Below, one piece after another: positions 10,741-39,587 of a stretch of DNA of 40,922 nt. Each line of letters starts with the position of its first letter. Positions within the stretch are counted from its first letter, which is position 1. The stretch comes from an uncultured Lachnospiraceae bacterium (GTDB lineage Bacteria > Bacillota > Clostridia > Lachnospirales > Lachnospiraceae). The position numbers were made by a program, and so were the translations under genes. The stretch is from NCBI GenBank assembly GCA_902789175.1, contig CADANF010000029.1, positions 1 to 40,922 on the forward strand. The letters run 5' to 3'. A model generated the notes under the pieces. That model was not told where the DNA came from. It made no database searches and worked only from the letters and a program-made list of their open reading frames with translations.

Positions 10741-10748
10741 GACATCCT

Positions 10749-13847: not shown

Positions 13848-13930
13848 GACTTTTTCATAGACATAAAGAAAGCTTTATAATAGTCTTCTTATGAATGTTC
13901 TGTATATGGCCACGTATAAACTCCTTAATA

Positions 13931-15498: not shown

Positions 15499-16380
15499 TT
15501 ATTCCCAGATTCCATTTTCGGGATTCCATTTTACTTTCGCTGTTCCTTCAATCACCGGACGGACAAATACTTTTACTCTGTCCATCATATCTGTCATGGA
15601 TACCTGTATAAGTGCCTTTTTCTTTTTCAGGAATGAGTTCCATCTTGTCTGATGCATTGGATCATTCAGGAATTCAGCCCCGAATGCAGCAGAATCCATT
15701 GTCATCTGAGTCTTTCTATTCTCAAAGGTCTCTACGACAGCATTCCGAAGCTCTTCATAAGAGAATTCGTACCTTTGGGATAGAACATAGATGTCATAAA
15801 AATCCTTATATCTGCTGTTCAGATAACCGTTATGTATGATGGCTTCCATTTTCTCCGCGATGGATGATTCCAGAGAGTAGGCGTTTACTCTCGGCGGATC
15901 CATATCAAGTATGACAGGGAAGTCCATTTTCACTGCATCAGGATAGATCACATCCCCAAATCCGATATCTATACCGACCGGAATCTTTGTCCGATCAAGA
16001 TATCCAACAGCTGAGATGTGAAGACCGTGATATTCCTTAAACTCTGTTATGTCCTCCACAGTTATGGAGTCCGTTTCAAATACAAGTGCATCATCAATAT
16101 CAAGAGAGAGTATTTCCCGGAATACGTTCTTCATTTCCTCCCCGCTATTGGATATACGCCTTGCAAGCAAATCCACATCTGTAGTTGCCCGTTCATACCT
16201 GCGATCAAATACCGCATACAAGAAGATTCCGCCCTTCAAAACAAATTGTTCCGCATATTTGGACACGGAAATTCGGTAGATTGTCCTTTCCAGCCCATAA
16301 TATGTAAGAGCTTCCTGAAAAGTGCTGCCGTTTTTTACTGCGAAGTTCTTAAGCCTCGCTTTTACTGAATCAGCATTCAT
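15499..16380 (-). CDS. abiEii: AbiEii/AbiGii-type nucleotidyltransferase toxin
   Basis: This 293-residue protein belongs to the AbiEii family of type IV toxin-antitoxin and abortive-infection systems. The nucleotidyltransferase core is visible as FVLKGGIFLYAV (about 47-58) and ERATTDVDLLAR (about 64-75). Later motifs include VGIDIGFGDVIYP (about 137-149) and SSIAEKMEAIIHNGYLNSRY (about 175-194) with the KMEAI and KD-D residues. It probably modifies tRNA or uses GTP, as shown for relatives. It is coupled to the upstream antitoxin by a TAATG overlap. G+C content is visibly higher than the genes around 20-30 kb. Confidence 0.9.
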   Translation of the reverse strand: MNADSVKARLKNFAVKNGSTFQEALTYYGLERTIYRISVSKYAEQFVLKGGIFLYAVFDRRYERATTDVDLLARRISNSGEEMKNVFREILSLDIDDALVFETDSITVEDITEFKEYHGLHISAVGYLDRTKIPVGIDIGFGDVIYPDAVKMDFPVILDMDPPRVNAYSLESSIAEKMEAIIHNGYLNSRYKDFYDIYVLSQRYEFSYEELRNAVVETFENRKTQMTMDSAAFGAEFLNDPMHQTRWNSFLKKKKALIQVSMTDMMDRVKVFVRPVIEGTAKVKWNPENGIWE

Positions 16381-16967
16381 TACACAAGTACCTCCAGATA
16401 CGTCCTTACGGTTTTCTCACAGCGCAGGCGTTTGGCATAGGCATAAAGTCTGTCAATCTGCCTGTCTCTGCGCTTCAGATAATTCCTAAGCACCTCAGAT
16501 GTTTCCTCAATCCCGATCTTGTTCCTGTAATAAATGATATCGACCACGGTTTTCTCGATATCGAAGATGTGGAAGCAGTTATCGCCATCCCAGACTTCAG
16601 TTACTCCAAGATCCATCCGGGATGCATCAAAATAAAAAATCCTGATCTCCGGCCATTCTGGCAGTGTATTAACCTTTTTCTTCCTTTCAATAGCAACATC
16701 CACGGCATCAGGCAGAAAATTGGTAAGTTCGTAATACCGTGCTGCACTCATCAGGCATATAACACCATTCGGTACAAAAGCGTCTGCGCTGAAGAAGTCG
16801 TTTTCATCGCCCTTATAGGTTAAGTTCTCATAAGTGCTTCGATTTACCCGTGACAGTATGCCCTGCTCTTCAAGCTTGCCAATCTTGTAATATGAATAGC
16901 CCATATCTTTTAGTTCAGCGATTGTGATAAACTTCTTATTTTCAGCGATTGCGTTCACATGAATCAC
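16380..16967 (-). CDS. abiEi: AbiEi-family antitoxin/transcriptional regulator
   Basis: This 195-residue protein begins with a winged-helix region (FITIAELKDMGYSYYKIGKL, EEQGILSRVNRSTYEN; about 13-50). The AbiEi C-terminal domain follows (GVICLMSAARYYELTNFLPD, DVAIERKKKV, IFDIEKTVVDIIYYRNKIG). In this family the protein represses its own operon and neutralises the AbiEii toxin. Its stop and the toxin start overlap in TAATG, so translation is coupled. No other gene of the unit is seen upstream, where a phage relic begins. Confidence 0.88.
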   Translation of the reverse strand: MIHVNAIAENKKFITIAELKDMGYSYYKIGKLEEQGILSRVNRSTYENLTYKGDENDFFSADAFVPNGVICLMSAARYYELTNFLPDAVDVAIERKKKVNTLPEWPEIRIFYFDASRMDLGVTEVWDGDNCFHIFDIEKTVVDIIYYRNKIGIEETSEVLRNYLKRRDRQIDRLYAYAKRLRCEKTVRTYLEVLV

Positions 16968-17006
16968 CTCCGCCTATACTATACATTATTCAAAGGAATA
17001 TTTCAA

Positions 17007-20722: not shown

Positions 20723-23700
20723 TTATTTTTGTGGTATGTTTCTAATTAAATCCGCAGTTACTTCATCACTTGTATCAAATGCTTCAAGTGAATCATCAAA
20801 TACTTTATCCAGAAAATCCAAAACATATCTACGTTGAATAACATTATGGTAACGCTGATTACTATAATTTCTTAAGCAGCTATAGCATGATGTATCCTTT
20901 AGTTCCCCACCACAAGTACACTTATTAACAATTCTATAAGCCTCTTTAAGTACTTGTGTGAAAACATTACCATCATATAATCGTTTTACATGCCCAGCTC
21001 CGCCTGGTGTATCATCGTATAATATTATCTTATAGCACCCATGTTTTGTCTCTTTATTAATAAAGTACTGTATTGTTCCTGCAATATCACTTTGTTCTAT
21101 ATTTAAAACAGTGCACACGCCTTTCATCAATGCATATAAAACAGATAATGCCTGATAATAATCATCTAACTCAGGCCAACAGAACTTAATCTGTATTACA
21201 TCTGTTTGGAAACGATATCCTAATGAAAAACGTCTTAATTTTTTATTATGACACGTACTACCGCTTGCGTTTAAATGTTCCTTTTCTATTACTCTCTTTA
21301 AGAAAATAGCATCATCATTAATCTCTGCAAATCCACAACTCTCACAAACCATAAAATTCGACTGATTAAGAATTGCCATTTCATCATTTTGACTAAACTG
21401 CATTTCATATTTATGATTTCCATCAATAAATGATTTGCTTTCAATATCATCTTTATATCCAACGTAAGCAATATCACTATTATAGCTTCTCTTAGGTTTA
21501 ATCAAAGTGGCTTTTTCTACCTTATTGGCTTCAAAACCAAATTCTGGAACAATAAATGTTTTAATTTGATCTTGTCGTAATACTTTTCCGCATGTATGAC
21601 AAATGCTTAGATGATTAGAATCTTTATACTCGATATGTTGATCGATATTAAGTGTCTTACACTCGCATATTACATAGTCATACATTTTCCAACCTAAGTT
21701 TGGTATTTTTCTTATATATCTACTTGTTATAAGCTTTCCATCTGCAACAATTTGTGATCCAGGAGCATACTCAGAGATAGCCATACTTAAATCCCTTGAT
21801 AAATCAAGATGATAAACCGTATCTTTCTTGTTTTTTCCTGTTTCATATATGGATAATCCAACTGTATCAACTGGAAAACCATACTTAGGTAATACATTTT
21901 TTCTAGATAAGAAAGTAAGAATATTTTCCTCTTCAAAATTACGCTTACGCATTCTTATGTAAACTTCATTTCCACCATTTCCATCTTGAGCCTGTTTAAG
22001 AGAATATTCTAACTTTTTAATTTCATCCTTATAGTCACTAACTGCTTTTGTTAATGCACCCTCTTCTCCTATCAATCCTTCCGTCCATCCAAAATCATAA
22101 ACATTAAATCTATTTACAAGAACTTCCGGTAAAAAACTAACAAGATAGTCTTTTAAGTTTTCAGGTTTTTCACCCAAATAATCCTTAAATACATCTACAC
22201 CAGATTTATTCTTAATTTCATTAAGAGTAATAAAATCTGAAACACTTTTAAAATATTCGCTGTGCATTTTCCAGAAAAAAGCAAATGCAGAAGCATACAC
22301 ATGGCGAATTGCTATCTTCTCATTTTCAACCTTAAAAATAGGAGGATTGATTCTACCTCGAATCATTTCTTCAGGTTCATCAAAATATGTGAAATCATGA
22401 TTTCCCTTTGTACAGAATGTTAAAGCATATGCTGAAGATTTAATGCTTCGACCTGCACGGCCTGCTCTCTGCGCATAATTAGCTGGTGATGGTGGCATAT
22501 TACGCATCATTACTGTCTCTAAGCTACCTACATCAACACCCATTTCAAAAGTTGTAGAACAACTCAAAACATCTATCTGTTTATTTTTAAACTTAGACTG
22601 ATAATCATAAGCCTTTTCTTTATCAAGCTGTGCAGTATGCTCCACAACTCTAAGCTTGCGAATTTCCATATCCTGATACATACGATAATAATGATTATCA
22701 GCAAATTTCTTAGAAACATCTATTTCTTCCAATTCACCAGCACATCTATATGTAGGACAAACACCTTTCACATTGTATGGCGTAATCTTATGACACTTTG
22801 GGCACAGATAAAACTTTGCTTTTGGTACAATCCTCAATTTTTCAACATTTACCTGATATCCTTTATCATTCTTAATAAGTATTTCTTTTGCTAAAAAAAT
22901 AGATTTCCAACACAATTCAAGAAAACGTTCAGCGTCTTTCTCTGGTGCTATTTTTGCTAAAATACGTTCAATATAATCTATTCTTCTATTACGCAAATTT
23001 TGTTTTGATGGAATGAAGGATTTCATCCTCTTTGACTTAGATGAATCCGAATAATTAAATTCTCCCTCATGCCCATTATGTAAGAAGAATTCTTTATCAT
23101 CTGCATTTAATGCAACCGGATACTTTATTGCAGCATCTACCATCATCGTCATTAACATAACATTTGATATATTTGCCATCTCTTCTTTGCATAAATTCCA
23201 GCTCTTAGCCGCAGGTATTAAATCATTATCCACATCAAACTTTAAAAATCCTAAATTTTGAAGCGAATTACCACTATTTAAGTTTACCAACTCAGCCAAA
23301 ATAGCCTTCCATGCTTCTTTTTTAGGCTCACGTTGTAAGTCTAAAGAATCAATTATGTGATATTTTTCAATAAAAGCCTGTAAATCATTTACAAAATGAT
23401 AAAATTTTGTCGTTTCGGATCTATTCTTAAGAGCCTCAACAATAATACGTCTGTATAATATTTCTTCATAAGTTTCACTAAAATATGATGCAAAGTATGC
23501 TGCGGCCTGTCTACTATCTGAAAAAGCAATAAACTGTTTTGCAGTCTCTTCCTTTTCTACATTTGTTTCCTCTTCCTCATTAAAGTCAAATGAATCCTCA
23601 TCATTATTAATCTCAACTGTTTCATGGATAGTCTTATAAGATGGAAGTTCCTCAAATAATGCAGTACCAATTACACTTGTAACAGCTTCTTGTCCTGTAA

Positions 23701-25471
23701 AAAACTGTCGTGCAACACCACTTACTGAACTAGTGTTACCACATGAAACGCATGTTTTAACGGAATCAATTGGTTTATTTAAATTATAGACAGTAACATA
23801 CCTTTTACTATCATGCTCACAGCGCTCAATTGCAGACGCATTCTTCTGCATTATTTTTCCACAATGTGGACAAATACACATTTCTTCAATTTTATTCTTT
23901 TCATCCTCTAAATCAATTTCATCAGAAATGGTATCACCTAAATATAGCGTCGTACTCATGCCTCTTCCATTTTCAACACCCGTCTGTTTATAATAACCAT
24001 ATTCATCGATCTTCCCCACAAGATAAATATCATGACAGTATTTACAAACAGCAGCCTCAAATACTGCATATTCTTCACCATTTTCAAATATTGTATTACT
24101 ACGAGTTAAAAACAATTTTTTTGAAGGCTCTAATGTAATAAAAGCACTGTCCGTTGCTTTTAAAAACATATGATACTTCGCGTCAAGTAACTGCCCTCTT
24201 TCCTTAATTGCATAAGCAGCTACTGTAACAAGATTAACTATATCTTCTTTTTTACATTTCAGTTGTTTAGCCAAAAAACTTACTGTTCTAGGTTTATCTA
24301 ATAATTGTTTACGTACATCCCAGTAATTTTTATCTTTTATTAAATAGTTATAAAGATCTCTTTGAACCGTTTCTTCAGTAGTATCTAGTCCACTTAATTT
24401 TTTATATTCAGATACTATTAATACAGGATTTTCATCTTTAATAGCTTCTGCTATAGCTGTATATGAGTTCCACTCATTTTTAAACTCTACTTTAGCTTCT
24501 TCACCAGGTTTTTGCCTAATGGCACGAATTATTGAATTTTCAGAAAAGCTACTATTACAGAGTCTGCTGGCAAAATCAGCAACTTCTTTATTCTGCTTTT
24601 CGTCACCCAGAGTTGCAGATGTTAATATATAATTTAGTTTATTAACAGGTAAAGAGCTTGCAACTCGACGCAGAAGCATTGAAACTTCTATACCCGTTGA
24701 GCCTTTGTAAACATGAGCCTCATCTAAAACAATATACTTCCAATAATTTGCATATTTTCCAGAGAAGAATCCCGCTTCTTTAGGTCTCACCATTAAATAT
24801 TCGAGCATAGCATAATTAGTAATTAAAATATGTGGCGGATTACTTATCATCGCCTCCCTACTTATTAATTCATTTTTTTTAGGCAATCTACCCTTATTTA
24901 GATTTTGATAGTCCCTAAGTGCATCTTCCTGCTTCTGCTGAGTTTGACCAGTGTAACTTCCAAATGTGATTTCAGGATATTCTTCTAAAAGATCTCTTAA
25001 TCTTTCTACCTGATCATTTGCCAAAGCATTCATTGGATAAATCAACAATGCCCTAACACCAGGACATAATGTTCCCTTTTCAAGCTCTTTTGACAAATCA
25101 GAGAGAATTGGCAATAAGAAACTCTCTGTTTTACCTGAACCAGTACCTGTAGAAACAACAATATTAGTTTTTTCTTTTACCTTTCGTATTGCCCTTTCCT
25201 GATGCAAATAAAGCTTTCTATCTATTGGAAAATTAAGTTTTTCCATATTTCTAGAAACAACGCCTTCATCCATTAATTCAGATAAAGATTTTCCTTTTTT
25301 AAAAGTGTCTACTGCATCTAAATATGGACCTTTTGCAAGTATATTTTTTTCAGATAACGCTTTTTTTAAATGTTCCTCATAGTCTACATCTGCAATTTGA
25401 AATATTGTACTTAGATATTTTTTATACTTATCTACTATCACATCAGATGTATTTATTGGCGAAAATTTCAT
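20723..25471 (-). CDS. Very large DEAD/DEAH helicase with DUF1998-type C-terminus (DruE-like candidate)
   Basis: This 1582-residue protein is a superfamily 2 helicase. Motif I is STGTGSGKTESFLLP (about 104-118), motif Ia IYPMNALANDQ, motif II DEAH (about 248-251), motif III SATL (about 284) and motif VI YAQRAGRAGRS (about 1000). Several CxxC pairs lie between, for example CPHCGK and CVSCGN (about 530-580). The C-terminal region carries the cysteine-rich site CTCGGELKDTSCYSCLRNYS (about 1512-1531) typical of DUF1998/MrfA-like helicases. It starts 11 bases after the 1514-residue gene. Size, domain order and the two-gene context recall DruE of Druantia systems, particularly type III. DISARM DrmA and Dpd helicases are alternatives. 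Anti-phage function is inferred. Confidence 0.85.
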   Translation of the reverse strand: MKFSPINTSDVIVDKYKKYLSTIFQIADVDYEEHLKKALSEKNILAKGPYLDAVDTFKKGKSLSELMDEGVVSRNMEKLNFPIDRKLYLHQERAIRKVKEKTNIVVSTGTGSGKTESFLLPILSDLSKELEKGTLCPGVRALLIYPMNALANDQVERLRDLLEEYPEITFGSYTGQTQQKQEDALRDYQNLNKGRLPKKNELISREAMISNPPHILITNYAMLEYLMVRPKEAGFFSGKYANYWKYIVLDEAHVYKGSTGIEVSMLLRRVASSLPVNKLNYILTSATLGDEKQNKEVADFASRLCNSSFSENSIIRAIRQKPGEEAKVEFKNEWNSYTAIAEAIKDENPVLIVSEYKKLSGLDTTEETVQRDLYNYLIKDKNYWDVRKQLLDKPRTVSFLAKQLKCKKEDIVNLVTVAAYAIKERGQLLDAKYHMFLKATDSAFITLEPSKKLFLTRSNTIFENGEEYAVFEAAVCKYCHDIYLVGKIDEYGYYKQTGVENGRGMSTTLYLGDTISDEIDLEDEKNKIEEMCICPHCGKIMQKNASAIERCEHDSKRYVTVYNLNKPIDSVKTCVSCGNTSSVSGVARQFFTGQEAVTSVIGTALFEELPSYKTIHETVEINNDEDSFDFNEEEETNVEKEETAKQFIAFSDSRQAAAYFASYFSETYEEILYRRIIVEALKNRSETTKFYHFVNDLQAFIEKYHIIDSLDLQREPKKEAWKAILAELVNLNSGNSLQNLGFLKFDVDNDLIPAAKSWNLCKEEMANISNVMLMTMMVDAAIKYPVALNADDKEFFLHNGHEGEFNYSDSSKSKRMKSFIPSKQNLRNRRIDYIERILAKIAPEKDAERFLELCWKSIFLAKEILIKNDKGYQVNVEKLRIVPKAKFYLCPKCHKITPYNVKGVCPTYRCAGELEEIDVSKKFADNHYYRMYQDMEIRKLRVVEHTAQLDKEKAYDYQSKFKNKQIDVLSCSTTFEMGVDVGSLETVMMRNMPPSPANYAQRAGRAGRSIKSSAYALTFCTKGNHDFTYFDEPEEMIRGRINPPIFKVENEKIAIRHVYASAFAFFWKMHSEYFKSVSDFITLNEIKNKSGVDVFKDYLGEKPENLKDYLVSFLPEVLVNRFNVYDFGWTEGLIGEEGALTKAVSDYKDEIKKLEYSLKQAQDGNGGNEVYIRMRKRNFEEENILTFLSRKNVLPKYGFPVDTVGLSIYETGKNKKDTVYHLDLSRDLSMAISEYAPGSQIVADGKLITSRYIRKIPNLGWKMYDYVICECKTLNIDQHIEYKDSNHLSICHTCGKVLRQDQIKTFIVPEFGFEANKVEKATLIKPKRSYNSDIAYVGYKDDIESKSFIDGNHKYEMQFSQNDEMAILNQSNFMVCESCGFAEINDDAIFLKRVIEKEHLNASGSTCHNKKLRRFSLGYRFQTDVIQIKFCWPELDDYYQALSVLYALMKGVCTVLNIEQSDIAGTIQYFINKETKHGCYKIILYDDTPGGAGHVKRLYDGNVFTQVLKEAYRIVNKCTCGGELKDTSCYSCLRNYSNQRYHNVIQRRYVLDFLDKVFDDSLEAFDTSDEVTADLIRNIPQK

Positions 25472-25482
25472 CTACTTCCCCC

Positions 25483-28400
25483 TTATTTTTTCCAAATTGA
25501 ATTATTATTACTTTTCTTAAAATGCTCTTTTTTCATCCATTTTCTTGCAGCTTTTTCCATTAGTTGATTAACACTTACAAAATCAACATTCCAAAAATAT
25601 GTTTCTTCTTCGTCAGTCCATAATATTGGATCGAAGCGACGATATTTTTCGTTTTTGCCGTATTGATCACTATATTCAGGTGTAGCAACACATTCCGAAT
25701 AATTATCATATAAGAGATTATCTATTTCATCATATTCATCTAAAAAATCAACCATCAAATAATTAATCTTATTTAGTTTAGGAATAGTCATCCTCACCTT
25801 TTTTACATCCCTTATATCTGTGTTATGAAATGCAACAATAAGTGTCCCTTCATATGTATGCTGATCTAATTTTTTATCAATATGAATATAATTCTGCAGT
25901 TTATCACTAACCGATATATTACGTACTACCGTGCCATCATTAATATATGTTAAATATTTTAGTTCAATACATTCGCCAGTTATATCTGCCGGATTACGAA
26001 GATTTTTTTTCAATGTACCAACTATATGATAATTTATTTCATCAAATGAATCTTCTTCCTCTTCTCCTTCATATAAAATAACATCATAATAACCAGTTCT
26101 TATTTCAGTCTTAACAACAATCTGCCTCTCATTATTTAGCGGCTGTTTATCACATATTAATTTTCCTTGAAATAAAATATCTGCATAGTAACTTCCTTTA
26201 CCGAGAATATCAAAAATTCCTGTTATTGCACCATCATCTATGTCTGTAATTAACTCAACATTTTTAAATACACTATGATTAACTATTCGAATGAAATCAA
26301 AATTATTATTATCATCCAGTAATCTGATGTTATGCACCATTTTCTTTGTATGTGAAGGACCTATGTATGATTTTAGCTTAGTCAGATCACATTCTATAAT
26401 TCCATCATTACGCTTATCATATGTAAAAATATTTTTTTCTCTATTATCCTCAACAAGTTCAAGCTTAATTGTTTTTGCAGGATATGAAAGATAAATCATA
26501 CGAGGAATATCGGCATACCAATAATCTTCAGGCCTATAAAAAGTCCATTTCATCCTATCAAAACTAAGAAGGAGCATCGGTATCTTAAAATTAATGTAAT
26601 ACGTATTATTACCAACTAACAAAGGACATTTAAATATATTATTTTCTAAATCAATAAATTCAAAGTCCATGTATTTATTCTCTTCGGCCATTTCAGCAAT
26701 AATAGTTTTCTTCTCAATTTTATAATTAGTACATAATGTTCCTCTCGTTTTATAAATATATGGGGCATCCTCAAAAGAGAATTGAAAATCTTTTAAATAA
26801 AAGAAATCCAATTTTTTTCCCCTATTAGTTCCAGGAATATCCACATCAACTGAATTAATTCCTGATTTAATACCAGAAATATTGCTTAAATCAAAATAAT
26901 AATACTTCTGCCCCAATAAATGAGCATTTTTTATATCAATTGCCTTTAGATCAGTAACTCTTATTTTATTTCCATTAACAATAAGTGCAGTTCCATTATA
27001 ACGCTCATCTTCAATATTTATAACGAGTGCCGGTATTCTACTATAAATCGGCAACTTTGATTCACCTATTTCAACAAATACTTCTTTTAGTAATCCATCA
27101 TTCGAGAATCCTCTTTGAGGCACGTCTCCTATGTAATAGTTTGCTTCCTCTGGAACATATAAAATATCTCCAGCTCTGAAATTGAATTGATAATACGTAA
27201 GCCCTTTAATATTATATGAATCTTCAATCGCTTCAGATTTAACATTAATAGAAGGCAAAGAAAAACCTATATATTCTCCATCTGATATACTTTCCACATT
27301 TACGTTATTTCCAATTTCATTAAATACACAAATTTTACGATTGTCCCATCTAAATTTTTTAATGACCTCACCATTATCTACTAATTCAAAAGTATGTGCC
27401 AAAAATACTTCCTTTTCATCAATGAAAAAGCTAAATCCATTAGTTTTAAGTCCAAAACTGCCTTCTTTAACAATACACCTATATTCCTTTACTGATAGAT
27501 TGTTTGATACTCTCCAATAAATATTTCTATTCTCTTTAGCTGTATTCTGAAGAAGTTGTTTAGGTAAAACAATTTCAAATTGCAAATCATTAGAAAAATC
27601 ATTAGAAAATGAACATACTAGTTGTGGACTATTAAAGAATTTTCTGTAAGAATCCTCGTCACGTTCTTTTTTATTCTTTACTCTTCTAAATTCTCCCTTT
27701 TCGTTATTCTTCCATAAAATAAATTTATCGTATAATCTAATTGGCATGTCATCCACGTTAACAGACAAATCCCAAAAAGAATTATTAATTGCTGATAAAG
27801 AAGCAGCTATCACATTCTTGCAATAGTCATTTGCTGCATATACAGATAGTCCACTATAATCAGATAACATCTGCTGGCGTTTAGAATAAGGATTTTTAAT
27901 TGCATCACAAATATAACGTGCTTCTTCTTCACATGAATCTGAAATACTTCTTTCTAAATCCAAATTGTAAAATTGGAATAGATATTCAAAAAAATCAAAA
28001 GCAAAGTTATCTACAATAAAAGCATGCATTAAAATATTTTTAACATACTCACCTTCTTCAATATATGCCTTTCCATACTTAATAAGTGTTTGCGATACAA
28101 TTTTTCCAATTTTAGCCTGCTGTGGAACGGTGATACTTTCTACACCAATTTCATCAGCTACTTTTCCCCAATAGTTACTATCATAACTTCTAATTGCAAT
28201 TTGTACTAATCCAACCGTAAGCATAATATTAGGAGCAATTATTGGATTTTTAATATTTATTATTCTCTTGCATGTATCAATGAAATAATTTTTCATCAGA
28301 AGTAAAAATTCTTCATCGGACAGTTCAATTCTTCCTATTAAGTCTACTTCTATAAATTTACGTAATATTCTATTGTGAAGTTTTCCCCAGGTAGATTCTT

Positions 28401-30027
28401 TAGAAATATATCTATTCGAAATATTAGTTATTAATCTAATATCCGGATTTTGGCGTTGAATACCTTTATCTCCATCCTGAATCTTAGCAAGGGTAGATCT
28501 AGCTGCTGTATTATGTTCCAAACTTTTCAAATTATTTTTTATTATTTGAGGGTTAGCTCTATAATATCCATCAATAAAATAATTATTAAATTCTCTGAGT
28601 TTAGATTGAATTAATTCTTTACTAGTTCCATATTTTTGTTTATAAATACTTATTAAATAATTTTTTCCAACTGGCTCGTACTTTTCAATCAATTTCAATA
28701 TTTGACCATTTATCGATGCATTTCCAATACGTATTTCCAAATCATTTAAAAATGCCATATTAGCGCAGTATTTCCCTGCAAATTTTCTTAAATAATCATA
28801 TACTTCATATTTATTTTGTAAATTTGTAGCATGCATCAGTTCAGGATTATTCTCAATTAAAAGTGATACTGAAAATTCCTGGTTCTCATACTTATTTAAA
28901 TCAAGATATGGAATTACATTTCCCGCATTTATCCCCTTATTAGAATAAAATCTAAATCGATTATACCCACAATCTATTACGTCTATACGATCATATATTT
29001 CTGAATTAATATCAGTAATCATATAATCTACATCATTTGTTAAATCTGCTTCATTAATAAGAGAATTATACTTATTTGTAAACTCTAAAGCTGTAATTGG
29101 CTCAACGCAATATGTCTTTAAAATGTATTCAATTAGAGCATCTCTATTATATTTAACTACAGTATTATCAACATAAAGGTGGGCTTTATCAGTTTTACCT
29201 AAATCCACCAATACATCATACATATCCTTAGATGGTAAATAAAATAATTCTACCTCTTGCAATACTTTTATAATTGCATTAATTCCCTTCTTACCATTTA
29301 CAGTATATAGTCTTATACTGCTATCTAATTTAGGAATATTCTTTACTTTTTCTCGCTTAAATGTAATACGTCGTTTATTTTTTTGACATTCTGATAAAAA
29401 TTCATCTTTACCTTTTCCTTTAACAGCACGTTGTTTCACAGCATTGGAATAGGTATTTTTTGTAAATTGACGTCCAATCTCATAAGCAAGTTTTGCAATA
29501 TTAGAATTAAGAAAATAAAAATCACTTATATCAGAATTAGGGTTATGTACATATGCATTATATGTTAATAAGGCAGCACTTAACCATGCTGCCTCATTTG
29601 CAGAAAGATTCTCTACATAATTATTTTCAGGAATATGTTTTTTAATCCAAGTATAGTATTTTCTTAAAAAACTGCATACTTCTCCCTGATCATAATCAGC
29701 TAATGCAGACCAACCCTGCTTTGCAATTTCATATTTCTCCTTATAGGTTTCTACTTCATTTGGATATGCTAATCTAAAAAAACCTATACCTTCCTCATTA
29801 AATGCATTTACAATAAATTTAATCTTTTCATTTTTACTGCCATGTCCATAATAATAGTTATTAAGCAAAGATTTCTTAAATCTCTTTCCAAAATGCAATG
29901 AATTAAATGACAATTCTAATTCATCCTGAGTAAAAACAAGTGCATTATAATTTAATGTGCCTGCAACAAGATATTTATCATATATAATTTTTATAACTGC
30001 ACAGAATACTCTATCCCTATTATTCAT
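25483..30027 (-). CDS. 1514-residue protein of unknown fold, partner of the DUF1998 helicase
   Basis: The protein is cytoplasmic by sequence, with no signal peptide or membrane segment. The N-terminal 700 residues appear mainly helical (for example ANEAAWLSAALLTYNAYVHN and CEEEARYICDAIKNPYSKRQ). The last 750 are beta-rich with many aromatic residues and end in a basic tail. I recognise no catalytic motif and no zinc site. AGGGG lies nine bases before the ATG. It starts 15 bases beyond the last decayed CRISPR repeat and is coupled to the helicase gene. By position and size it would correspond to DruH of a Druantia type III pair, but this needs a profile search. Codon use is very AT-rich, like the helicase and the cas genes. 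Confidence 0.7.
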   Translation of the reverse strand: MNNRDRVFCAVIKIIYDKYLVAGTLNYNALVFTQDELELSFNSLHFGKRFKKSLLNNYYYGHGSKNEKIKFIVNAFNEEGIGFFRLAYPNEVETYKEKYEIAKQGWSALADYDQGEVCSFLRKYYTWIKKHIPENNYVENLSANEAAWLSAALLTYNAYVHNPNSDISDFYFLNSNIAKLAYEIGRQFTKNTYSNAVKQRAVKGKGKDEFLSECQKNKRRITFKREKVKNIPKLDSSIRLYTVNGKKGINAIIKVLQEVELFYLPSKDMYDVLVDLGKTDKAHLYVDNTVVKYNRDALIEYILKTYCVEPITALEFTNKYNSLINEADLTNDVDYMITDINSEIYDRIDVIDCGYNRFRFYSNKGINAGNVIPYLDLNKYENQEFSVSLLIENNPELMHATNLQNKYEVYDYLRKFAGKYCANMAFLNDLEIRIGNASINGQILKLIEKYEPVGKNYLISIYKQKYGTSKELIQSKLREFNNYFIDGYYRANPQIIKNNLKSLEHNTAARSTLAKIQDGDKGIQRQNPDIRLITNISNRYISKESTWGKLHNRILRKFIEVDLIGRIELSDEEFLLLMKNYFIDTCKRIINIKNPIIAPNIMLTVGLVQIAIRSYDSNYWGKVADEIGVESITVPQQAKIGKIVSQTLIKYGKAYIEEGEYVKNILMHAFIVDNFAFDFFEYLFQFYNLDLERSISDSCEEEARYICDAIKNPYSKRQQMLSDYSGLSVYAANDYCKNVIAASLSAINNSFWDLSVNVDDMPIRLYDKFILWKNNEKGEFRRVKNKKERDEDSYRKFFNSPQLVCSFSNDFSNDLQFEIVLPKQLLQNTAKENRNIYWRVSNNLSVKEYRCIVKEGSFGLKTNGFSFFIDEKEVFLAHTFELVDNGEVIKKFRWDNRKICVFNEIGNNVNVESISDGEYIGFSLPSINVKSEAIEDSYNIKGLTYYQFNFRAGDILYVPEEANYYIGDVPQRGFSNDGLLKEVFVEIGESKLPIYSRIPALVINIEDERYNGTALIVNGNKIRVTDLKAIDIKNAHLLGQKYYYFDLSNISGIKSGINSVDVDIPGTNRGKKLDFFYLKDFQFSFEDAPYIYKTRGTLCTNYKIEKKTIIAEMAEENKYMDFEFIDLENNIFKCPLLVGNNTYYINFKIPMLLLSFDRMKWTFYRPEDYWYADIPRMIYLSYPAKTIKLELVEDNREKNIFTYDKRNDGIIECDLTKLKSYIGPSHTKKMVHNIRLLDDNNNFDFIRIVNHSVFKNVELITDIDDGAITGIFDILGKGSYYADILFQGKLICDKQPLNNERQIVVKTEIRTGYYDVILYEGEEEEDSFDEINYHIVGTLKKNLRNPADITGECIELKYLTYINDGTVVRNISVSDKLQNYIHIDKKLDQHTYEGTLIVAFHNTDIRDVKKVRMTIPKLNKINYLMVDFLDEYDEIDNLLYDNYSECVATPEYSDQYGKNEKYRRFDPILWTDEEETYFWNVDFVSVNQLMEKAARKWMKKEHFKKSNNNSIWKK

Positions 30028-30042: not shown

Positions 30043-33000
30043 CTAAACACATTTATTAATTTTTCCAGGTACTAAAACTGGCAACTTACATATACCCCTC
30101 AGCAGTTTTTCTAATCACTTAATTTTTCTAGGTACTAAAACTACCATGGTCTCAACTTAATAAATAGTCGAGTTTTCTAATCACTTAATTCTTCCAGGTA
30201 CTAAAACCGCCGTTCTCTTCCATAGCTTCTTTTATGCGTTTTCTAATCACTTAATTCTTCCAGGTACTAAAACATTATTGTAAACTCTTCAAAAGCTTCA
30301 TCCAGTTTTCTAATCACTTAATTCTTCCAGGTACTAAAACCAGATATTTGTCGCAAACTTCAGCGGTTTTGTTTTCTAATCACTTAATTCTTCCAGGTAC
30401 TAAAACTGGGCGGAAGAGGAGCAACATTTGCCGGAGTTTTCTAATCACTTAATTCTTCCAGGTACTAAAACATATCGAACTTCAGAATCCTACTAATAGA
30501 GTTTTCTAATCACTTAATTCTTCCAGGTACTAAAACCAAAGAATAATAATAACCGCCAGTAGTAGGTTTTCTAATCACTTAATTCTTCCAGGTACTAAAA
30601 CAGCTACTAAAAAGTATATGAGGCAGACTTAGTTTTCTAATCACTTAATTCTTCCAGGTACTAAAACGCCTAGTATTCAAGTAGTATCAGCTATATGGTT
30701 TTCTAATCACTTAATTCTTCCAGGTACTAAAACTACCATTTGACAGTGGGGTGATAGTTATCAGTTTTCTAATCACTTAATTCTTCCAGGTACTAAAACA
30801 TCGTCTGTGTTGTTTCAATGTCAAATCCTGTTTTCTAATCACTTAATTCTTCCAGGTACTAAAACATGGTTTTGCGACGGTACCACAACTTGAAGTTTTC
30901 TAATCACTTAATTCTTCCAGGTACTAAAACCATTCGTTCTCCTTTCTTTTCACCTTAATTGTTTTCTAATCACTTAATTCTTCCAGGTACTAAAACCTCC
31001 ATTCAGAGCTGATAACCCTTTGATCGGTTTTCTAATCACTTAATTCTTCCAGGTACTAAAACGGGTTTCTTCTATTATAGGAACAAAAAAAGTTTTCTAA
31101 TCACTTAATTCTTCCAGGTACTAAAACATAAAAACTCCATTCTTAAGACTTATTTTGTTTTCTAATCACTTAATTCTTCCAGGTACTAAAACCTCGTCCT
31201 CTAGCATGGTTCCGCGCCTCAGTTTTCTAATCACTTAATTCTTCCAGGTACTAAAACTATCAACTCCAAACGACTTCGGAAATTCAGGTTTTCTAATCAC
31301 TTAATTCTTCCAGGTACTAAAACATGGGTTCGCAACGGTTCCGCAGGTTGAATGTTTTCTAATCACTTAATTCTTCCAGGTACTAAAACTCCGTTATTTT
31401 GATAGCTTCTGTATTTTCTGTTTTCTAATTACTTAATTCTTCCAGGTACTAAAACCAAGTCTCACAGTAGCACCCGAAGCTGGCGGTTTTCTAATCACTT
31501 AATTCTTCCAGGTACTAAAACCATCAGGCTGCTTCATTCTTAATAAATCTCGTTTTCTAATCACTTAATTCTTCCAGGTACTAAAACAGCAGTGTTCTTG
31601 AATCTGCTAAACTTGATGTTTTCTAATCACTTAATTCTTCCAGGTACTAAAACAAAAGCATACAAATAAGGAGGATTGTTTCGTTTTCTAATCACTTAAT
31701 TCTTCCAGGTACTAAAACTGATGCCGACGTGATCCAGTACCGGATCATGTTTTCTAATCACTTAATTCTTCCAGGTACTAAAACTGAAAAAACTGGATGT
31801 AAACAGGATATTAAGTTTTCTAATCACTTAATTCTTCCAGGTACTAAAACAAGCGCCATTGTTGACCATTACAACAATGGGTTTTCTAATCACTTAATTC
31901 TTCCAGGTACTAAAACTAACGGACATCAGCACGCTAACAAAGGCGGGTTTTCTAATCACTTAATTCTTCCAGGTACTAAAACCTTATGTATGGTTATGTA
32001 TTGATAACACAGGTTTTCTAATCACTTAATTCTTCCAGGTACTAAAACAGGATCCAAAGACTCGGAGGAAATGCGAGAGTTTTCTAATCACTTAATTCTT
32101 CCAGGTACTAAAACAATGGTAAATCAGGCAGAACAGGGGATCGGGTTTTCTAATCACTTAATTCTTCCAGGTACTAAAACAAGTGCATCACAGCCATAAC
32201 GGTTGCTGAAGTTTTCTAATCACTTAATTCTTCCAGGTACTAAAACATACTTATATATATTATTAATATGTTAATGTTTTCTAATCACTTAATTCTTCCA
32301 GGTACTAAAACATATCATTAACATAATCAACCAGCTGATTGGGTTTTCTAATCACTTAATTCTTCCAGGTACTAAAACCTATGCGTACAAATGATAGGAA
32401 ATCAACGGGTTTTCTAATCACTTAATTCTTCCAGGTACTAAAACCATTCAGATGCCGATAAAGAGTTCAAAGAGTTTTCTAATCACTTAATTCTTCCAGG
32501 TACTAAAACGTAGCAAACCAATATTGAGTAGTTAAAGGGTTTTCTAATCACTTAATTCTTCCAGGTACTAAAACAATTTTCCATCTGATAACCATCATAT
32601 ACAGTTTTCTAATCACTTAATTCTTCCAGGTACTAAAACTATTATAAACTACTAATAAAATTGTTTTTGTTTTCTAATCACTTAATTCTTCCAGGTACTA
32701 AAACCATTGTCCTTGTATATGTATTCTTCATAAGTTTTCTAATCACTTAATTCTTCCAGGTACTAAAACTAGATAGCTTCGATTATGAAGGCAAATCAGT
32801 TTTCTAATCACTTAATTCTTCCAGGTACTAAAACCATCCATCTGGTAACGCCTAACATAAACGGTTTTCTAATCACTTAATTCTTCCAGGTACTAAAACT
32901 AGCTGATCCACCATCTGAACCTTCTGAAGGTTTTCTAATCACTTAATTCTTCCAGGTACTAAAACTTTTCTAATCACTTAATTCTTCCAGGTACTAAAAC

Positions 33001-33784
33001 CGGATGTTCTTATATCATTTAAGCTATTTGTTTTCTAATCACTTAATTCTTCCAGGTACTAAAACTAACGGCGGTAGTCTTTACAGTGGTGTATCGTTTT
33101 CTAATCACTTAATTCTTCCAGGTACTAAAACAGGTTGCTGTAACTGTGCTGCAAATCTCTCGTTTTCTAATCACTTAATTCTTCCAGGTACTAAAACAAA
33201 CAGAATAGGGAGGGATATGTATCTTTAGTTTTCTAATCACTTAATTCTTCCAGGTACTAAAACTTGCTTTTATTCCGTCCGCTTCAAGCTCTTGTTTTCT
33301 AATCACTTAATTCTTCCAGGTACTAAAACCTAATGGTACTCAAGTTTTTGGAAATGGTGTTTTCTAATCACTTAATTCTTCCAGGTACTAAAACACTTGT
33401 CGGGTAGTTCTTCGTTAAACTGCGTTTTCTAATCACTTAATTCTTCCAGGTACTAAAACCTATGATATGTATCAATGTTGATATAAGAGTTTTCTAATCA
33501 CTTAATTCTTCCAGGTACTAAAACCTCAGATGGTTAACTCAAATGGTTTTTTGGTTTTCTAATCACTTAATTCTTCCAGGTACTAAAACAAGTAGGATCT
33601 AATGCAGAAAATGGTTTCGTTTTCTAATCACTTAATTCTTCCAGGTACTAAAACTGTAATTCTCAATAATCCCTTTATTGTATGTTTTCTAATCACTTAA
33701 TTCTTCCAGGTACTAAAACATATATACATTTCATACATTCCATACATTGTTTTCTAATCACTTAATTCTTCCAGGTACTAAAAC
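30043..33784 (-). CRISPR. Type II CRISPR array: 58 repeats, 56 spacers
   Basis: The 36-base repeat begins GTTTTCTAATCACTTAATTC and ends GGTACTAAAAC on the plus strand; the transcript strand is minus (GUUUUAGUACC first), as shown by the tracrRNA. Counting repeat starts gives 58 repeats and 56 spacers of 27-31 bases (mostly 29-30). The repeats are nearly invariant. Exceptions are the two at the 30.0-30.14 kb end, which are decayed as expected at the trailer, one C-to-T change near 31430, and one 35-base copy fused directly to its neighbour at 32966. The leader is at the 33.8 kb end, so the newest spacers are there. Confidence 0.98.
32930..33000 (-). repeat. Two CRISPR repeats fused without a spacer
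   Basis: A full repeat at 32930-32965 is followed at once by a 35-base repeat (32966-33000) that lacks only its first G. The spacer that should lie between them is absent, leaving a clean repeat-repeat junction within an otherwise regular part of the array. Confidence 0.95.
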
Positions 33785-33884
33785 ATCAAATCTTACTATT
33801 TTCTGCAAATCACAAGAACGTCTTCTATTAATTTGAAATAGTAAACTATTTAACATTTTAGTTCCTCCCAGACATACTGTATTA
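33785..33884 (-). promoter_or_regulatory. CRISPR leader
   Basis: About 100 AT-rich bases separate the csn2 stop from the first repeat. On the transcript strand it contains TATAAT close to the csn2 end, a perfect seven-pair palindrome (AAATAGT-AA-ACTATTT, about 33835-33850), and it ends in ATTTGAT directly at the repeat. Type II-A leaders of streptococci end in ATTTGAG, the site that guides spacer integration; the end here matches it at 6 of 7 bases. Confidence 0.7.
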
Positions 33885-34883
33885 TTATATCACTTTTTTA
33901 CTGAGTAAACACTGGATTTCTGGAATTTTAGGCTCTTTTTTCCAGTATTTTTTTATGTCATTTGTTTCATTTATCAGCTTAATTAATACTAATTCTTCTG
34001 GTTGAAAAATCTCTTCTGTAGAACCTATTTTTTGAATAATATTTGAAACACATTTTTTTACATAACTTTTTTCCCATTGTCTTTCAAGAGGATAATAATC
34101 TTTTATAAAATCCATAATATGATCAATTGTAGGCATTACAAAAACTTCCTCATTAATTATATTAATATTTTCCATTACGCTATCTGAAAGATATACATAA
34201 CCATCTAAAGAAGTAGCAAAAACAAACCAAATATTTGATTTATTACAAAGCTCTTCACATCTTAATACAATATTTTTATAATCCTTTATGCCAACAATAT
34301 GATCCAAATTTTCAAATATATACATTCTTTTTTCAGGTATTAATTCTTGCTGTTTTGAAATAATATTTATAAAAGCTTCAATCAATTCTGTTGTTGTTAA
34401 TTCATGAATATCCTTATCTTCTAACGTTCTTATTGATGTATGCTGTATCATACCAAGTACATCTTCCGATACAAATGAAAGCTGTAAATTATCATCTTTA
34501 AATAATTCTCTATTTAATCTATCAAAAAATCTGACAAGAATTGACTCTATTTGATACAAATCATTTTGGTAATCAAAAACACTTATATATTCTTTTAAAT
34601 ATTTAGTTAAAAGGCTTCCTTTTCCCAGCTGTATAAAATCAATAATATTTTCCTTAGAATTAATTCTATAACATTCCCACTGTTTTCTCCCCGGAATTTC
34701 ATCATCAATTTCTATGTTGTCAATAAAGCTCTCTTCATATTCCCTATATTTTTCCGTTGAAAAATGTTTACATATTGAATCGATTATATATTTTTTTAAA
34801 GGAATATTACTACCACACAACTGAGTAATAGAATTAAATGATAATAAATATTTTTTATTTAAATCCTTTATAGTCAGTTTCAT
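33885..34883 (-). CDS. csn2: Csn2 adaptation protein, long form
   Basis: This 332-residue protein lies between cas2 and the array, where type II-A loci carry csn2. Short Csn2 is about 220 residues; this length fits the long form known from Streptococcus thermophilus CRISPR1-type loci. Visible features are a beta-rich start (LTIKDLNKKYLLSFNSITQL), a central helical part, and RMYIFENLDHIVGIKDYKNI (about 190-209), which resembles a degenerate P-loop ATPase Walker B region. It should form a ring on DNA ends and help Cas1-Cas2 choose and insert spacers. It overlaps cas2 by four bases (ATGA). Assignment rests mainly on position and size. Confidence 0.8.
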   Translation of the reverse strand: MKLTIKDLNKKYLLSFNSITQLCGSNIPLKKYIIDSICKHFSTEKYREYEESFIDNIEIDDEIPGRKQWECYRINSKENIIDFIQLGKGSLLTKYLKEYISVFDYQNDLYQIESILVRFFDRLNRELFKDDNLQLSFVSEDVLGMIQHTSIRTLEDKDIHELTTTELIEAFINIISKQQELIPEKRMYIFENLDHIVGIKDYKNIVLRCEELCNKSNIWFVFATSLDGYVYLSDSVMENINIINEEVFVMPTIDHIMDFIKDYYPLERQWEKSYVKKCVSNIIQKIGSTEEIFQPEELVLIKLINETNDIKKYWKKEPKIPEIQCLLSKKVI

Positions 34884-35203
34884 ATTATGATCATCCTCTC
34901 AACACTAAGCACCTCTTCTGTTAATTTTTTACTTCCCACCAATAATTTCATATCCTCATATTGTTTTTCTGTAATTGTAAGGAGTCTAATATTTCCTTCT
35001 TTAGGAATTATTTTTTTTAGTCTCTTTTCCATTTGGTTTGCAAATTGTCTATTAGGACAAGTTCTAACATAAACAGAATATTGAATCATTATAAATCCTT
35101 CTGACATAATATCTTTGCGGAATTTTCTATACGCCCTCTGTTGATCAGAAGTATCAACAGGTAAATCAAACATACATAATAGCTTCATATATTTAGTAAT
35201 CAT
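34880..35203 (-). CDS. cas2: Cas2 integrase subunit
   Basis: A 107-residue Cas2 with the ferredoxin-like start MKLLCMFDLPVDTSDQQ, in which the conserved Asp lies in FDLP, then RKFRKDIMSEGFIMIQYSVY and IRLLTITEKQYEDM. It bridges two Cas1 dimers during spacer insertion. I keep the first ATG at 35203 because AGGGG lies just before it; it overlaps the end of cas1 by 11 bases. It also overlaps csn2 by four bases, so the three adaptation genes are translationally coupled. Confidence 0.95.
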   Translation of the reverse strand: MITKYMKLLCMFDLPVDTSDQQRAYRKFRKDIMSEGFIMIQYSVYVRTCPNRQFANQMEKRLKKIIPKEGNIRLLTITEKQYEDMKLLVGSKKLTEEVLSVERMIII

Positions 35204-36101
35204 CCTCTTCCCCTAAATAATCACAAACCTGTGGAAATATTACTTTTTCTCTTCTTCCTGATAAAAAAGCAGAATATTGAATTACATATTCTTCCAGCAT
35301 ATTAGCAAGGAACATTTTTTTATCCATATAGATAATTATATGATTTAAAATATTTACAAGTTGTCTTCTATGTTCACTTTTAAAATACTTTTCATTATCA
35401 AGTATTCTATACGCATATAAATCAACAAATGGCCTTATGGGCTCCATTAAATCATCTATGAGATTAAATCTATTAAATTCATTTTTATGATGTATCCCCA
35501 GTTGGCTATTAAGTCCATAACCCACACATAGTCGCGCTAAATATGATCTTATTATGGAATACCCGTAATCTAGACCTGAATTTAAAAGGATATCTTCATT
35601 GCCCCTTGAAAATGTTGTTCCCATTAACGTATTAAAATATACTTTTGCTGCATGTGCTTCTCTATTGGTCTTATCACCAACAGTTATTTCTTCTAAAAAC
35701 TGTTGTAATTTGTCATCCGCCCCTACTTTTTTTAAAGATCTTAACACTTGTTTTTGATTAAGGATTTTATAATAAACTATTATTTTCCAAAAACTATCAT
35801 AAAATACCGTGTCTTTTTCTATTTGAAATCCTATATTTTTTGAAATACGGCTATAATTATCATATGAACTGTAAAATCCTATAGGCAAATGCTCCATATT
35901 ACAAAAAATCACCCCTATATTATATTCCGCCAATGTACTAAGCAATCTTACTGTTAGATTAATTTTTAGATTATCAAGAACAATCATAGAAATATCTTCC
36001 AATGGAATCCATATTTCCCCATCACCTTTATCTATTAATAGATTATTAAGTTTTAAATGAATTGAACATTCATTTTCTATTAATATTACTCTAAATGCCA
36101 T
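35193..36101 (-). CDS. cas1: Cas1 integrase
   Basis: A 302-residue type II Cas1. The metal-binding residues are visible as the Glu in TNREAHAAKVYF (about 145-156), the His in LGIHHKNEFNRFNL (about 202-215) and the acidic cluster IDDLMEPIRPFVD (about 216-228). The N-terminal beta domain includes the typical GDGEIWIPLEDISMIVLDNL. AGGGG lies before the ATG. The tracrRNA terminator ends only about 32 bases upstream, so no separate promoter is evident and expression probably depends on read-through from cas9 or the tracrRNA. Confidence 0.96.
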   Translation of the reverse strand: MAFRVILIENECSIHLKLNNLLIDKGDGEIWIPLEDISMIVLDNLKINLTVRLLSTLAEYNIGVIFCNMEHLPIGFYSSYDNYSRISKNIGFQIEKDTVFYDSFWKIIVYYKILNQKQVLRSLKKVGADDKLQQFLEEITVGDKTNREAHAAKVYFNTLMGTTFSRGNEDILLNSGLDYGYSIIRSYLARLCVGYGLNSQLGIHHKNEFNRFNLIDDLMEPIRPFVDLYAYRILDNEKYFKSEHRRQLVNILNHIIIYMDKKMFLANMLEEYVIQYSAFLSGRREKVIFPQVCDYLGEEDDY

Positions 36102-36133
36102 ATTATCCCCTATAAACTAATAGCATTCTTTGT

Positions 36134-36232
36134 AAAAAGAAAAGGACGCCCGTCGGCGTCCTTTAGTTTCGGCATAAAGCCTTATTTTAGTAGGTCTGAA
36201 AAAATTAAGTGATTAGAAACTTTTTCTCTACT
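36134..36232 (-). ncRNA. tracrRNA
   Basis: On the minus strand the sequence begins near 36232 and carries an anti-repeat at about 36184-36226, complementary to most of the array repeat (including TTTCTAATCACTTAATT and CTACTAAAA, with a central bulge). It continues AATAAGGCTTTATGCCG, the typical nexus hairpin of type II tracrRNAs, then a strong final hairpin GGACGCCGACGGGCGTCC and a T-run. It lies between cas9 and cas1, as in Streptococcus thermophilus CRISPR1. Length is about 99 bases. It fixes the transcribed strand of the array. Confidence 0.95.
36143..36163 (-). terminator. tracrRNA rho-independent terminator
   Basis: On the minus strand AAAGGACGCC and GGGCGTCCTTT form a G/C-rich stem around a short loop, followed by TTTTCTTTTT. 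It is the 3-prime hairpin of the tracrRNA and also stands between cas9 and cas1. Confidence 0.9.
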
Positions 36233-36238
36233 AAGAAT

Positions 36239-36267
36239 ACTATACCTCAATAAAACACCTTTTTCAA
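36239..36267 (-). promoter_or_regulatory. tracrRNA promoter
   Basis: TTGAAA (36267-36262), a 17-base spacer and TATAGT (36244-36239) on the minus strand match the vegetative consensus at 5 of 6 bases in each box. Transcription would begin near 36232, just before the anti-repeat. The -10 box is 32 bases beyond the cas9 stop codon and nine bases separate that stop from the -35 box. Confidence 0.8.
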
Positions 36268-36275
36268 CATTTATT

Positions 36276-39200: not shown

Positions 39201-39587
39201 TGAATAATCTGATGAATCATCCCCACTATCAGCATCATCTAAATATGATATTCCTCTATGCTTCAAATAATTGAGCAACACCCAATAAAGTTTCTCGTTA
39301 GATATTTCTTCATTAAGTGCCTTTATTTTATATTCTAAAATATTGTTAATTGCCTTGTCTGGAATATTGAACCCACTTGACACCCACAATTGTTTAAAAT
39401 CTTCAATTCTTGTTTTTCTTCTTCTGGTTAATCTTCTTCCCTGTCTAAAACCACGTCTTTCTACGTTATTTGCCGTTTCTGCAGCTGGAAATATATTAGA
39501 ACATGACTCTAATATTTCATAATCATCATTTACCACAGCCCAACCAACTGATGCTATTCCTAAATCTAATCCTATTGAAATCCCCAT
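36276..39587 (-). CDS. cas9: Cas9 RNA-guided nuclease
   Basis: This 1103-residue Cas9 appears complete and active. RuvC-I has the catalytic Asp at residue 8 (IGLDLGIASVGWAVV). The arginine-rich bridge helix is RRGFRQGRRLTRRRKTRIED (about 44-63). RuvC-II has the Glu in RIVIEMPRDKN (about 505-515). The HNH domain shows CPYSGK (about 575), the catalytic IDHIIPLS (about 596-603) and the Asn in SNKVLVYAEENQ. RuvC-III has AHHAVDAMLIA (about 740-750). The C-terminal 300 residues should hold the PAM-reading part, which cannot be predicted here. GGGAGG precedes the ATG. The size is at the small end for Cas9, similar to the S. thermophilus CRISPR1 type. Confidence 0.98.
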   Translation of the reverse strand: MGISIGLDLGIASVGWAVVNDDYEILESCSNIFPAAETANNVERRGFRQGRRLTRRRKTRIEDFKQLWVSSGFNIPDKAINNILEYKIKALNEEISNEKLYWVLLNYLKHRGISYLDDADSGDDSSDYSKSIARNEAELKEKLPCEIQWERFQEYNAFRGNITIEENGESITLRNVYTKSAYEKEINEIINCQFKYNSKLTEEFKDKYLELFGRKREYYEGPGNELSRTDYGKYTTEMGEDGNYITVDNIFDKLIGKCSINSDEKRASGASYTAQEFNVLNDLNNLTITSDSDLIEQGKLTEEAKRKIVEKIKISKTVNVKKIIGEVIGDKNCVITGARIDKNDKEIFHSFEAYNKMRRALEEIGFDITSLSRDELDLIGDILTLNTDKESIIKAFDRNSIVLPENVKDILIKIRKANGSLFSKWQSFGLTIMNELIPELYLQPKNQMELLSDMGILKSRKERFKDCNIIPADVMVEDIYNPVVSKTVRITVKILNALIKKYGYPDRIVIEMPRDKNTDEEQKRIKKEQRDNENELKNIKDKIKSEYGRLITEKDFKNHKKLPLKLKLWNEQGGICPYSGKMIRIDDLIDDQNKFEIDHIIPLSISFDDSRSNKVLVYAEENQKKGNRTPLSYLTTVNREWNHNSFIKYILENYSGVTQRKKRDNFLNEQDITKVEVLQGFINRNINDTRYASKVVLNLLQDYFISKNANTKVKVIRGSFTHQMRVNLSLKKDRDESYAHHAVDAMLIAFSQMGYEAYHKITEKYIDYETGEIKNKEGFEALLKNDLEYKMAMYESKWLRIKSNIENAAKTNKYWYQKNQKCNRALCNQTVYCTRNVDDKVYKISKLDIRTDDGIKRFKNFIEKGNEKNFLMYKNNHKTFELIMDIYEKYSDSKNPFLQYEKETGDIIRKYSKKNNGPKITMLKYLDGEVGSCIDISHKYGFEKNSRKVILDSLNPFRMDVYFKDNQYYLVGIKQSDVKCEGNLFIIDEDKYAETLINEKMIAPGQKRSDLEKLGYEFKLSFYKEDIIEYEKGGEVFIERFLSRTMPKVRNYIETKPVEAAKFKKQNLIGLSKTKSIRKVVTDILGNRYYVNNMKFTTVVGKQ

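Follow-up and report, generated by a model that had tools for sequence, protein, structure and literature searches.

The 40,922-nucleotide window analysed here, contig CADANF010000029.1 of an uncultured Lachnospiraceae bacterium, contains a pair of large genes whose composition is, by sequence, unusual: a DruE-type helicase is coupled to a protein from a separate partner family. We are highly confident that the helicase is a defence-type relative of DruE whose partner family lacks any detectable sequence relation to DruH, and these comparisons favour regarding the pair as a distinct Druantia-like type that has a partner family to itself over membership in Druantia III. The functional reading that we put forward, and to which we give about even chances, is a two-gene anti-phage module in which the non-DruH partner would sense infection and license the helicase. 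It draws on a conserved gene pair with intact helicase motifs, a conserved partner core and, in some members, exchangeable N-terminal modules, as well as on the matching divergence of both genes and on defence genes among the neighbours of relatives.

In the window, the system consists of exactly two minus-strand open reading frames (ORFs), both with ATG starts and separated by 11 bp: a 1514-residue partner gene (25483..30027), first of the pair, and a 1582-residue superfamily 2 (SF2) helicase gene (20723..25471), second of the pair. The ORF listing agrees on both lengths and on the 11-base spacing with the original prediction made from the letters of this stretch. Unbroken ORFs of such length with conserved homologues are not due to chance.

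A DruE-family helicase outside the DruE3 and DruE1 references

The helicase motifs expected from the original prediction were all located on the minus strand: motif I (Walker A, TGTGSGKT) at residues 108-115 (25127..25150), invariant in an alignment of 11 helicases, and, from motif position and the same alignment, motif II (DEAH) at residues 250-253 (24713..24724), motif III (SAT) at residues 285-287 (24611..24619) and motif VI (QRAGRAGR) at residues 1001-1008 (22448..22471). Pfam domains are DEAD, Helicase_C and MZB (MrfA Zn-binding, DUF1998 region; PF09369, E 6.1e-13), the last at residues 1446-1533 (20873..21136, minus strand). Together with seven CxxC pairs, of which C1520, C1529 and C1532 are invariant among the 11 helicases, MZB bears out the predicted C-terminal cysteine cluster of DUF1998 type. 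The protein ends about 49 residues past MZB, which leaves no space for a C-terminal nuclease, and Pfam gave no PLD match.

Both PADLOC and a tree place the protein in the DruE/YprA family. The DruE3 model scored 590 bits and DruE1 587, followed by DruE2 (410), DruE4 (360), SngC (110), DpdJ (90) and DrmA (79). For scale, E. coli DruE3 reaches 2179 bits with its own PADLOC model and 571 with DruE1; by these bit scores, the window helicase is about as distant from type III as type III is from type I. The best solved chain was 9tu7_Y (2108 aa, 261 bits), deposited only as 'DEAD/DEAH box helicase'. Searched with DruE models, the organism's own genome contained a sole other place, on contig C38, which is a RecQ-like gene.

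In a tree of 104 helicases, a quick maximum-likelihood reconstruction with uneven letter make-up between rows, the window protein and 86 relatives fall on one side of a branch (support 99 in the Shimodaira–Hasegawa-like approximate likelihood ratio test, SH-aLRT). Seven DruE3, three DruE1 (L034-L036) and four ARMADA-type rows all lie outside this group. Similarity-based collection of the relatives accounts for part of the unity of the window group, but not for its distance from the DruE3 and DruE1 references. The DruE3 proteins formed one group with a support of 70, which rose to 100 once the row from Chryseobacterium (locus L135) was joined to them. On these grounds, the helicase is assigned by sequence to the DruE family, outside the DruE3 and DruE1 references.

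A partner family with a conserved core

At E<=1 the partner protein had no match to a PADLOC, Pfam or NCBIfam model, and at E<=10 none among PDB sequences. The original description of a protein without recognisable motifs, beyond existing profiles, thus holds for these four collections, and no known family, non-defence families included, was matched; a family and a predicted fold did emerge through relatives. A profile of 10 partners excluding the window protein recovered it with an hhalign probability of 97.3 (E 1.7e-11) and by hmmsearch at E 1.9e-12. A hidden Markov model (HMM) of the shared core, 938 positions long, matches 78 of the 81 upstream partners from all sources; 21 of the 81, including the window core, served as its seeds. 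It misses the partners of L051 and L135, and that of L080 as called. Duplicates (L023, L024, L028) were removed before the tree, the partner BLAST, and the core-HMM and extension counts.

In the window protein, the HMM boundary separates an N-terminal module (residues 1-513; 28489..30027) from the conserved core (residues 514-1488; 25564..28488), both on the minus strand. The predicted layout of the core is some 270 helical residues (about 530-796; 27640..28440, minus strand) followed by immunoglobulin (Ig)-like domains, a tandem beta-sandwich part of Ig/fibronectin-III (FN3)-like character (residues about 802-1484; 25576..27624, minus strand). The core profile found no match among PDB sequences, nor did the helical domain among solved structures in a fold search. 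With the whole core, Foldseek returned Ig/FN3 proteins with E values down to 6.5e-08 but with TM-scores near 0.1 over the chain, and the comparison with viral proteins gave the like.

At L080:4534-8041, two adjacent ORFs of 351 and 796 aa each hold part of the core, in what is either a broken or a two-gene form. Viral contig IMGVR_UViG_3300004097_003605 (L051, about 4200-14300) has a DruE-like helicase of 2098 aa with an upstream gene of 1256 aa that is recognised by neither profile, DruH or core; it may represent a third partner family.

Sequence comparisons separate the partner from DruH

PADLOC contains at least 10 DruH models, and E. coli DruH matches ten of them. None of 10 partners (window, L023-L026, L028, L030, L032, L040, L112) was matched, at a cut-off of E<=1 for nine and E<=0.1 for the tenth. 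The profile check proposed with the original prediction therefore succeeded for DruE, with DruE3 at 590 bits, and failed for DruH. Against an alignment of seven DruH proteins, hhalign gave a probability of at most 0.2% in 12 of 12 runs, among them profiles of 10 and 11 family members. The window protein alone reaches 85.2% with clade A of its own family, 10.5% with clade B and 0.4% with L023 alone; since it scores this low against its own clades, little weight attaches to a low value from one protein, and the family profiles are the better test.

An HMM of the seven DruH proteins, all from Pseudomonadota, recognised none of 80 other partners (best E 0.088), and the core HMM reached at best E 0.4 with the seven DruH; yet the DruH HMM matched the partner from L135, in another phylum (Bacteroidota), at E 1.9e-17. 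By sequence models, profile-profile comparisons and HMMs in both directions alike, the window partner shows no relation to DruH. Two further searches carry little information: the DruH profile found nothing in 392 genomes of the order, a result that shows little as it had no known match as control, and DruH (9tud) was not among the fold-search matches listed, to which we give no weight because its presence in the library (entries to April 2026) is unconfirmed. What stands of the original prediction, a Druantia III-like or new two-gene defence system, is the two-gene arrangement, the DruE-type helicase and a probable role in defence; membership in Druantia III is unsupported, since no sequence relation to DruH was seen even though a DruH profile reaches across phyla.

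The L135 locus (L135:4962-13862) lies on a Chryseobacterium balustinum plasmid, and its partner is annotated 'hypothetical protein'. With a partner that matches the DruH profile, this pair is likely a Druantia III system overlooked by annotation; its helicase groups with DruE3.

Conservation and co-divergence of the pair

A profile scan of genome contigs with the helicase alignment returned at least 540 relatives, of which the best 80, by likeness to the helicase family, were kept. Many of these are contigs of metagenome-assembled genomes (MAGs), whose named organism may be wrong; with this reserve, record titles are mostly Bacillota and also include Gastranaerophilales, Chloroflexi, Ignavibacteria, Spirochaetales, Aquificaceae, Scalindua, Parcubacteria and two archaeal MAGs. 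A large same-strand gene lies directly upstream of the helicase in 71 of the 80 loci (73 are listed when L051 and L135 are included), and the core HMM matches 70 of these 71 genes. Further carriers of the core are L080 with its split ORFs, L060 and L075 as contig-edge fragments, and L062, with the gene 3.1 kb upstream. With four loci cut by a contig edge left out (L098, L108, L115, L130), 76 loci are testable, and 74 of them have the core next to the helicase; no core was seen upstream in L057 and L092. Intergenic gaps range from -62 to 238 bp, 70 of 73 being within -70 to 30.

The two proteins diverge together. Over 73 pairs, identities of the partner core and of the helicase correlate with a Mantel r of 0.93, which none of 1000 permutations equalled, and the nearest neighbours of partner and helicase agree in 45 of the 73. 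Mean identity is lower for the partner core (17%) than for the helicase (38%). Comparable behaviour is reported for DruH and DruE (PMC13192584). A pairwise search within the order found the partner in one of 295 genomes; since such searches miss divergent partners (e.g., in G116), this figure is not a family count. No relative was found by tblastn of the partner in plasmids and phages, or with the partner core in viral contigs. Through the helicase only, the same pair was found in the 59-kb record of Ruminococcus phage NatCom_28274 (PV036439.1; L040:5248-12671), annotated as hypothetical and located between endolysin and exonuclease genes with small hypothetical genes intervening. It is possibly a phage-borne defence against rival phages.

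N-terminal modules and the nuclease slot

N-terminal extensions occur in 26 partners and fall into seven groups among which no mutual similarity was detected. Matches among them include LRR_5 and RNA_pol_A_CTD/HhH, and the L024 partner also matched PglW models (E 9.6e-11) over its RNA_pol_A_CTD part. For the 513-residue window module, no BLAST match was found among partners, hhalign stayed at or below 0.5% against the six other extension groups, no Pfam family matched and no relative was present in viral contigs. A search of 61 genomes found it solely in its own; 36 of the remaining ones are from the same genus.

The other variable end is the C-terminus of the helicase. Thirteen loci encode a helicase extended by a tail of 119-156 residues, followed within 150 bp by a gene whose product (562-617 aa) belongs to a single similarity group; the L025 member, the only one scanned, is a NERD-UvrD protein. 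A gene of this group was found in none of the 46 loci lacking such a tail, each with at least 1.7 kb of downstream sequence. Most of the 13 tails are mutually similar (L025, L121 and L125 weakly), and at least six gains or losses of the tail/third-gene trait are needed on the tree, so that a Fisher value for the association is no straightforward probability. Perhaps the NERD-UvrD product docks on the helicase tail. The nearest relative of the window pair, L112, has a tail of about 140 aa (L112:12564-13067) unlike the NERD-linked ones and no third gene. In L061, L077 and L089, a longer tail of 386-388 residues displays by eye a PD-(D/E)xK/Vsr-like pattern; it matched no PDB sequence, and the downstream gene encodes 684-872 aa, UvrD-like in L077. 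The window helicase has neither a NERD-linked nor a Vsr-like tail, and most clade members are tail-free. PLD was not seen in Pfam scans of a few members, the extent of the PLD search.

Relation to known systems

The census of Bell et al. (2025 preprint), which covers nearly 52,000 YprA-like helicases (PMC12458937), is the source of the strongest competing explanation, namely that the pair corresponds to a helicase branch already labelled Druantia III-B. We regard this as a serious contender, with a chance only slightly short of even. There, the nuclease of the 'Druantia Type III-like' branch is most often none, in other cases Vsr and occasionally PLD, and the III-B label appears in a legend for the representative GIH50614.1. 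The C-terminal nuclease mix of the window clade, mostly none with a Vsr-like tail in three loci, may fit this description, and a census of that size probably covered such proteins. However, the likeness is by description only, and the main text of PMC12458937, as far as covered here, uses neither the word DruH nor the word partner and describes no partner. No paper on the partner family was found among the matches listed from open-licence PMC papers.

It is unlikely that the pair is a true Druantia III whose partner is a remote DruH homologue visible by structure only. In the type III system of E. coli ATCC 8739, composed of DruH and DruE (PMC13192584, PMC13316683), DruH is reported to be the likely sensor, more divergent than DruE and made of alpha-helical regions and three Ig-like domains. 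The window pair resembles it in having two large co-directional genes with the partner first, a DruE-family YprA helicase, a partner that diverges faster than the helicase, and predicted helical regions and Ig-like domains; the profile test is also imperfect, given the low scores of the window protein with single clades of its own family. Ig-like folds are common, however, and the helicases of both groups separate in the tree. With hhalign at or below 0.2% in all 12 runs and HMM searches at best at E 0.4 and 0.088, the partner contrasts with that of Chryseobacterium at 1.9e-17. In addition, III-A DruE has two C-terminal PLD nuclease domains, which the window helicase lacks, and variable N-terminal modules are present in part of the window partner family.

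Somewhat less probable still is a partner acting as effector, whose core or 513-aa module would conceal a nuclease or another enzyme acting on DNA. A helicase without nuclease would leave room for it, and a dimer-dependent nuclease activity is reported for DruH (PMC13192584). Nevertheless, the 513-aa module matches no family, and among 74 aligned cores the only charged residue conserved at 60% or more is an Asp (65%) that is missing in the window protein, next to one His at 82%; in this alignment, the core has no conserved catalytic-looking set. A module for DNA repair or for plasmid or transformation control is improbable: it could appeal to the role of the YprA-family MrfA in mitomycin repair (PMC12458937) and to the want of phage data for the pair, but the partner is patchy and fast-diverging, relatives have defence genes nearby, one copy is in a phage record, and the helicase is far nearer DruE (590 bits) than YprA (66 bits, with different search programs and models).

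Most other assignments were rejected. Housekeeping MrfA/YprA, a grouping that the original prediction had named as refuting it, was ruled out: the solved YprA (PDB 6znp, a 751-aa chain) shares the SF2 core and the MZB zinc domain but scores 66 bits only, against 590 for the DruE model. DISARM and Dpd were ruled out by DrmA (79 bits) and DpdJ (90 bits) against DruE. Druantia I (DruA-E) is close by model score, DruE1 being only three bits below DruE3; it was nonetheless ruled out by the helicase clade, which excludes the three DruE1 references, and by a partner without match to any Dru model, the scan for DruA-D having covered part of the window genes. Druantia IV (DruE, DruF and DruL in PADLOC) is less clear-cut: DruE4 gave 360 bits and the partner no PADLOC match, the presence of a DruL model in the library being unconfirmed. 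ARMADA II (PMC12458937) likewise has a YprA-family helicase, and a UvrD-type gene is next downstream in the 13 L025-like loci and in L077; but the window partner does not belong to the BrxHII-like helicases or the PglX methylases, and ARMADA was ruled out by its four references, which form a separate, distant clade.

Genomic context

A CRISPR array (30170..33785, recognised by its tandem repeats) and then csn2, cas2, cas1 and cas9 of type II-A (33885..39587, minus strand; PADLOC, with cas9 and cas1 also in NCBIfam) occupy the upstream side of the pair. On the opposite side are an AbiE-like pair (15499..16967, minus strand; Pfam), composed of an AbiEii toxin-like gene (15499-16380) and an AbiEi antitoxin-like gene (16380-16967), a macro-domain protein, a flavodoxin and a GNAT protein. 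The AbiE-like region (15499-17236) shares 98% identity over 1.7 kb with a second species of the genus (G402) and may reflect a recent transfer inside this same island. Elsewhere in the window, about nine copies of a 21-bp tandem repeat (6853-7041) lie within ORF 6653-8224, and the final 100 or so bases (40825-40922) recur at 93-100% elsewhere in this genome, on other contigs, as well as in a different species; they are probably the end of a mobile element at which the assembly broke. Synteny searches within the genus gave scattered matches and no clear empty site. Around the pair, promoter-like sites were below shuffled sequence (47 versus a mean of 57.3) and terminator-like sites above (8 versus 2.9); neither was used as evidence.

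A possible mechanism and its implications

In the mechanism that we propose for the anti-phage module, the partner would both sense infection and license the helicase. The variable N-terminal module of the partner (LRR, helix-hairpin-helix or other), its Ig-like string or both would meet a phage-made trigger, upon which the core would release or recruit the helicase. E. coli DruE is reported to unwind 3'-tailed DNA (PMC13192584); by homology, the window helicase may load on 3'-tailed DNA of replicating phage genomes and strip or block them. Because it has no nuclease domain, as read from its sequence, we suggest that the window system stops replication by occupying or unwinding DNA, or hands the DNA to host nucleases. 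Relatives would plug in a probable nuclease, either as the NERD-UvrD third gene or as the fused Vsr-like domain.

The neighbourhoods of relatives are consistent with such a role in defence: the 84 nearest neighbour genes include, among the PADLOC matches listed at E<=1e-10 (25 of 194 families), Cas3 (2), type I methylase (2), ThsA, CARF-RelE, HEC-05, PDC-S26, PDC-S41 and a type IV restriction enzyme. Several points weigh against the proposal. These neighbour matches are raw counts without background, no phage assay was found for any family member, a helicase without nuclease leaves the killing step unexplained, and the Ig-like strings could be structural only. Moreover, an N-terminal extension of at least 130 aa is absent from 49 of 78 core partners (three others, whose core match starts late, were left out of this count), so such a module is not needed in general, and the term sensor draws on relatives and analogy since the module of the window protein matches nothing.

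A broader proposition, which we hold tentatively and at slightly less than even strength, is that of a separate Druantia-like type of immunity extending over Bacillota and several other phyla, in which a modular receptor partner, made of a licensing core and unrelated recognition modules, would be combined with a DruE-like helicase and an exchangeable nuclease slot. A census that demands DruE together with DruH, like the PADLOC-based one of PMC13192584, would miss this group despite at least 540 helicase relatives in genome contigs. With a related helicase, another partner and interchangeable modules at both ends, the family offers a natural experiment on how DruE-like helicases are triggered, and phage sensing in Druantia becomes testable by module comparison. 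If the broader proposition is true, these pairs would couple a sensor logic like that of NLRs to a DNA helicase.

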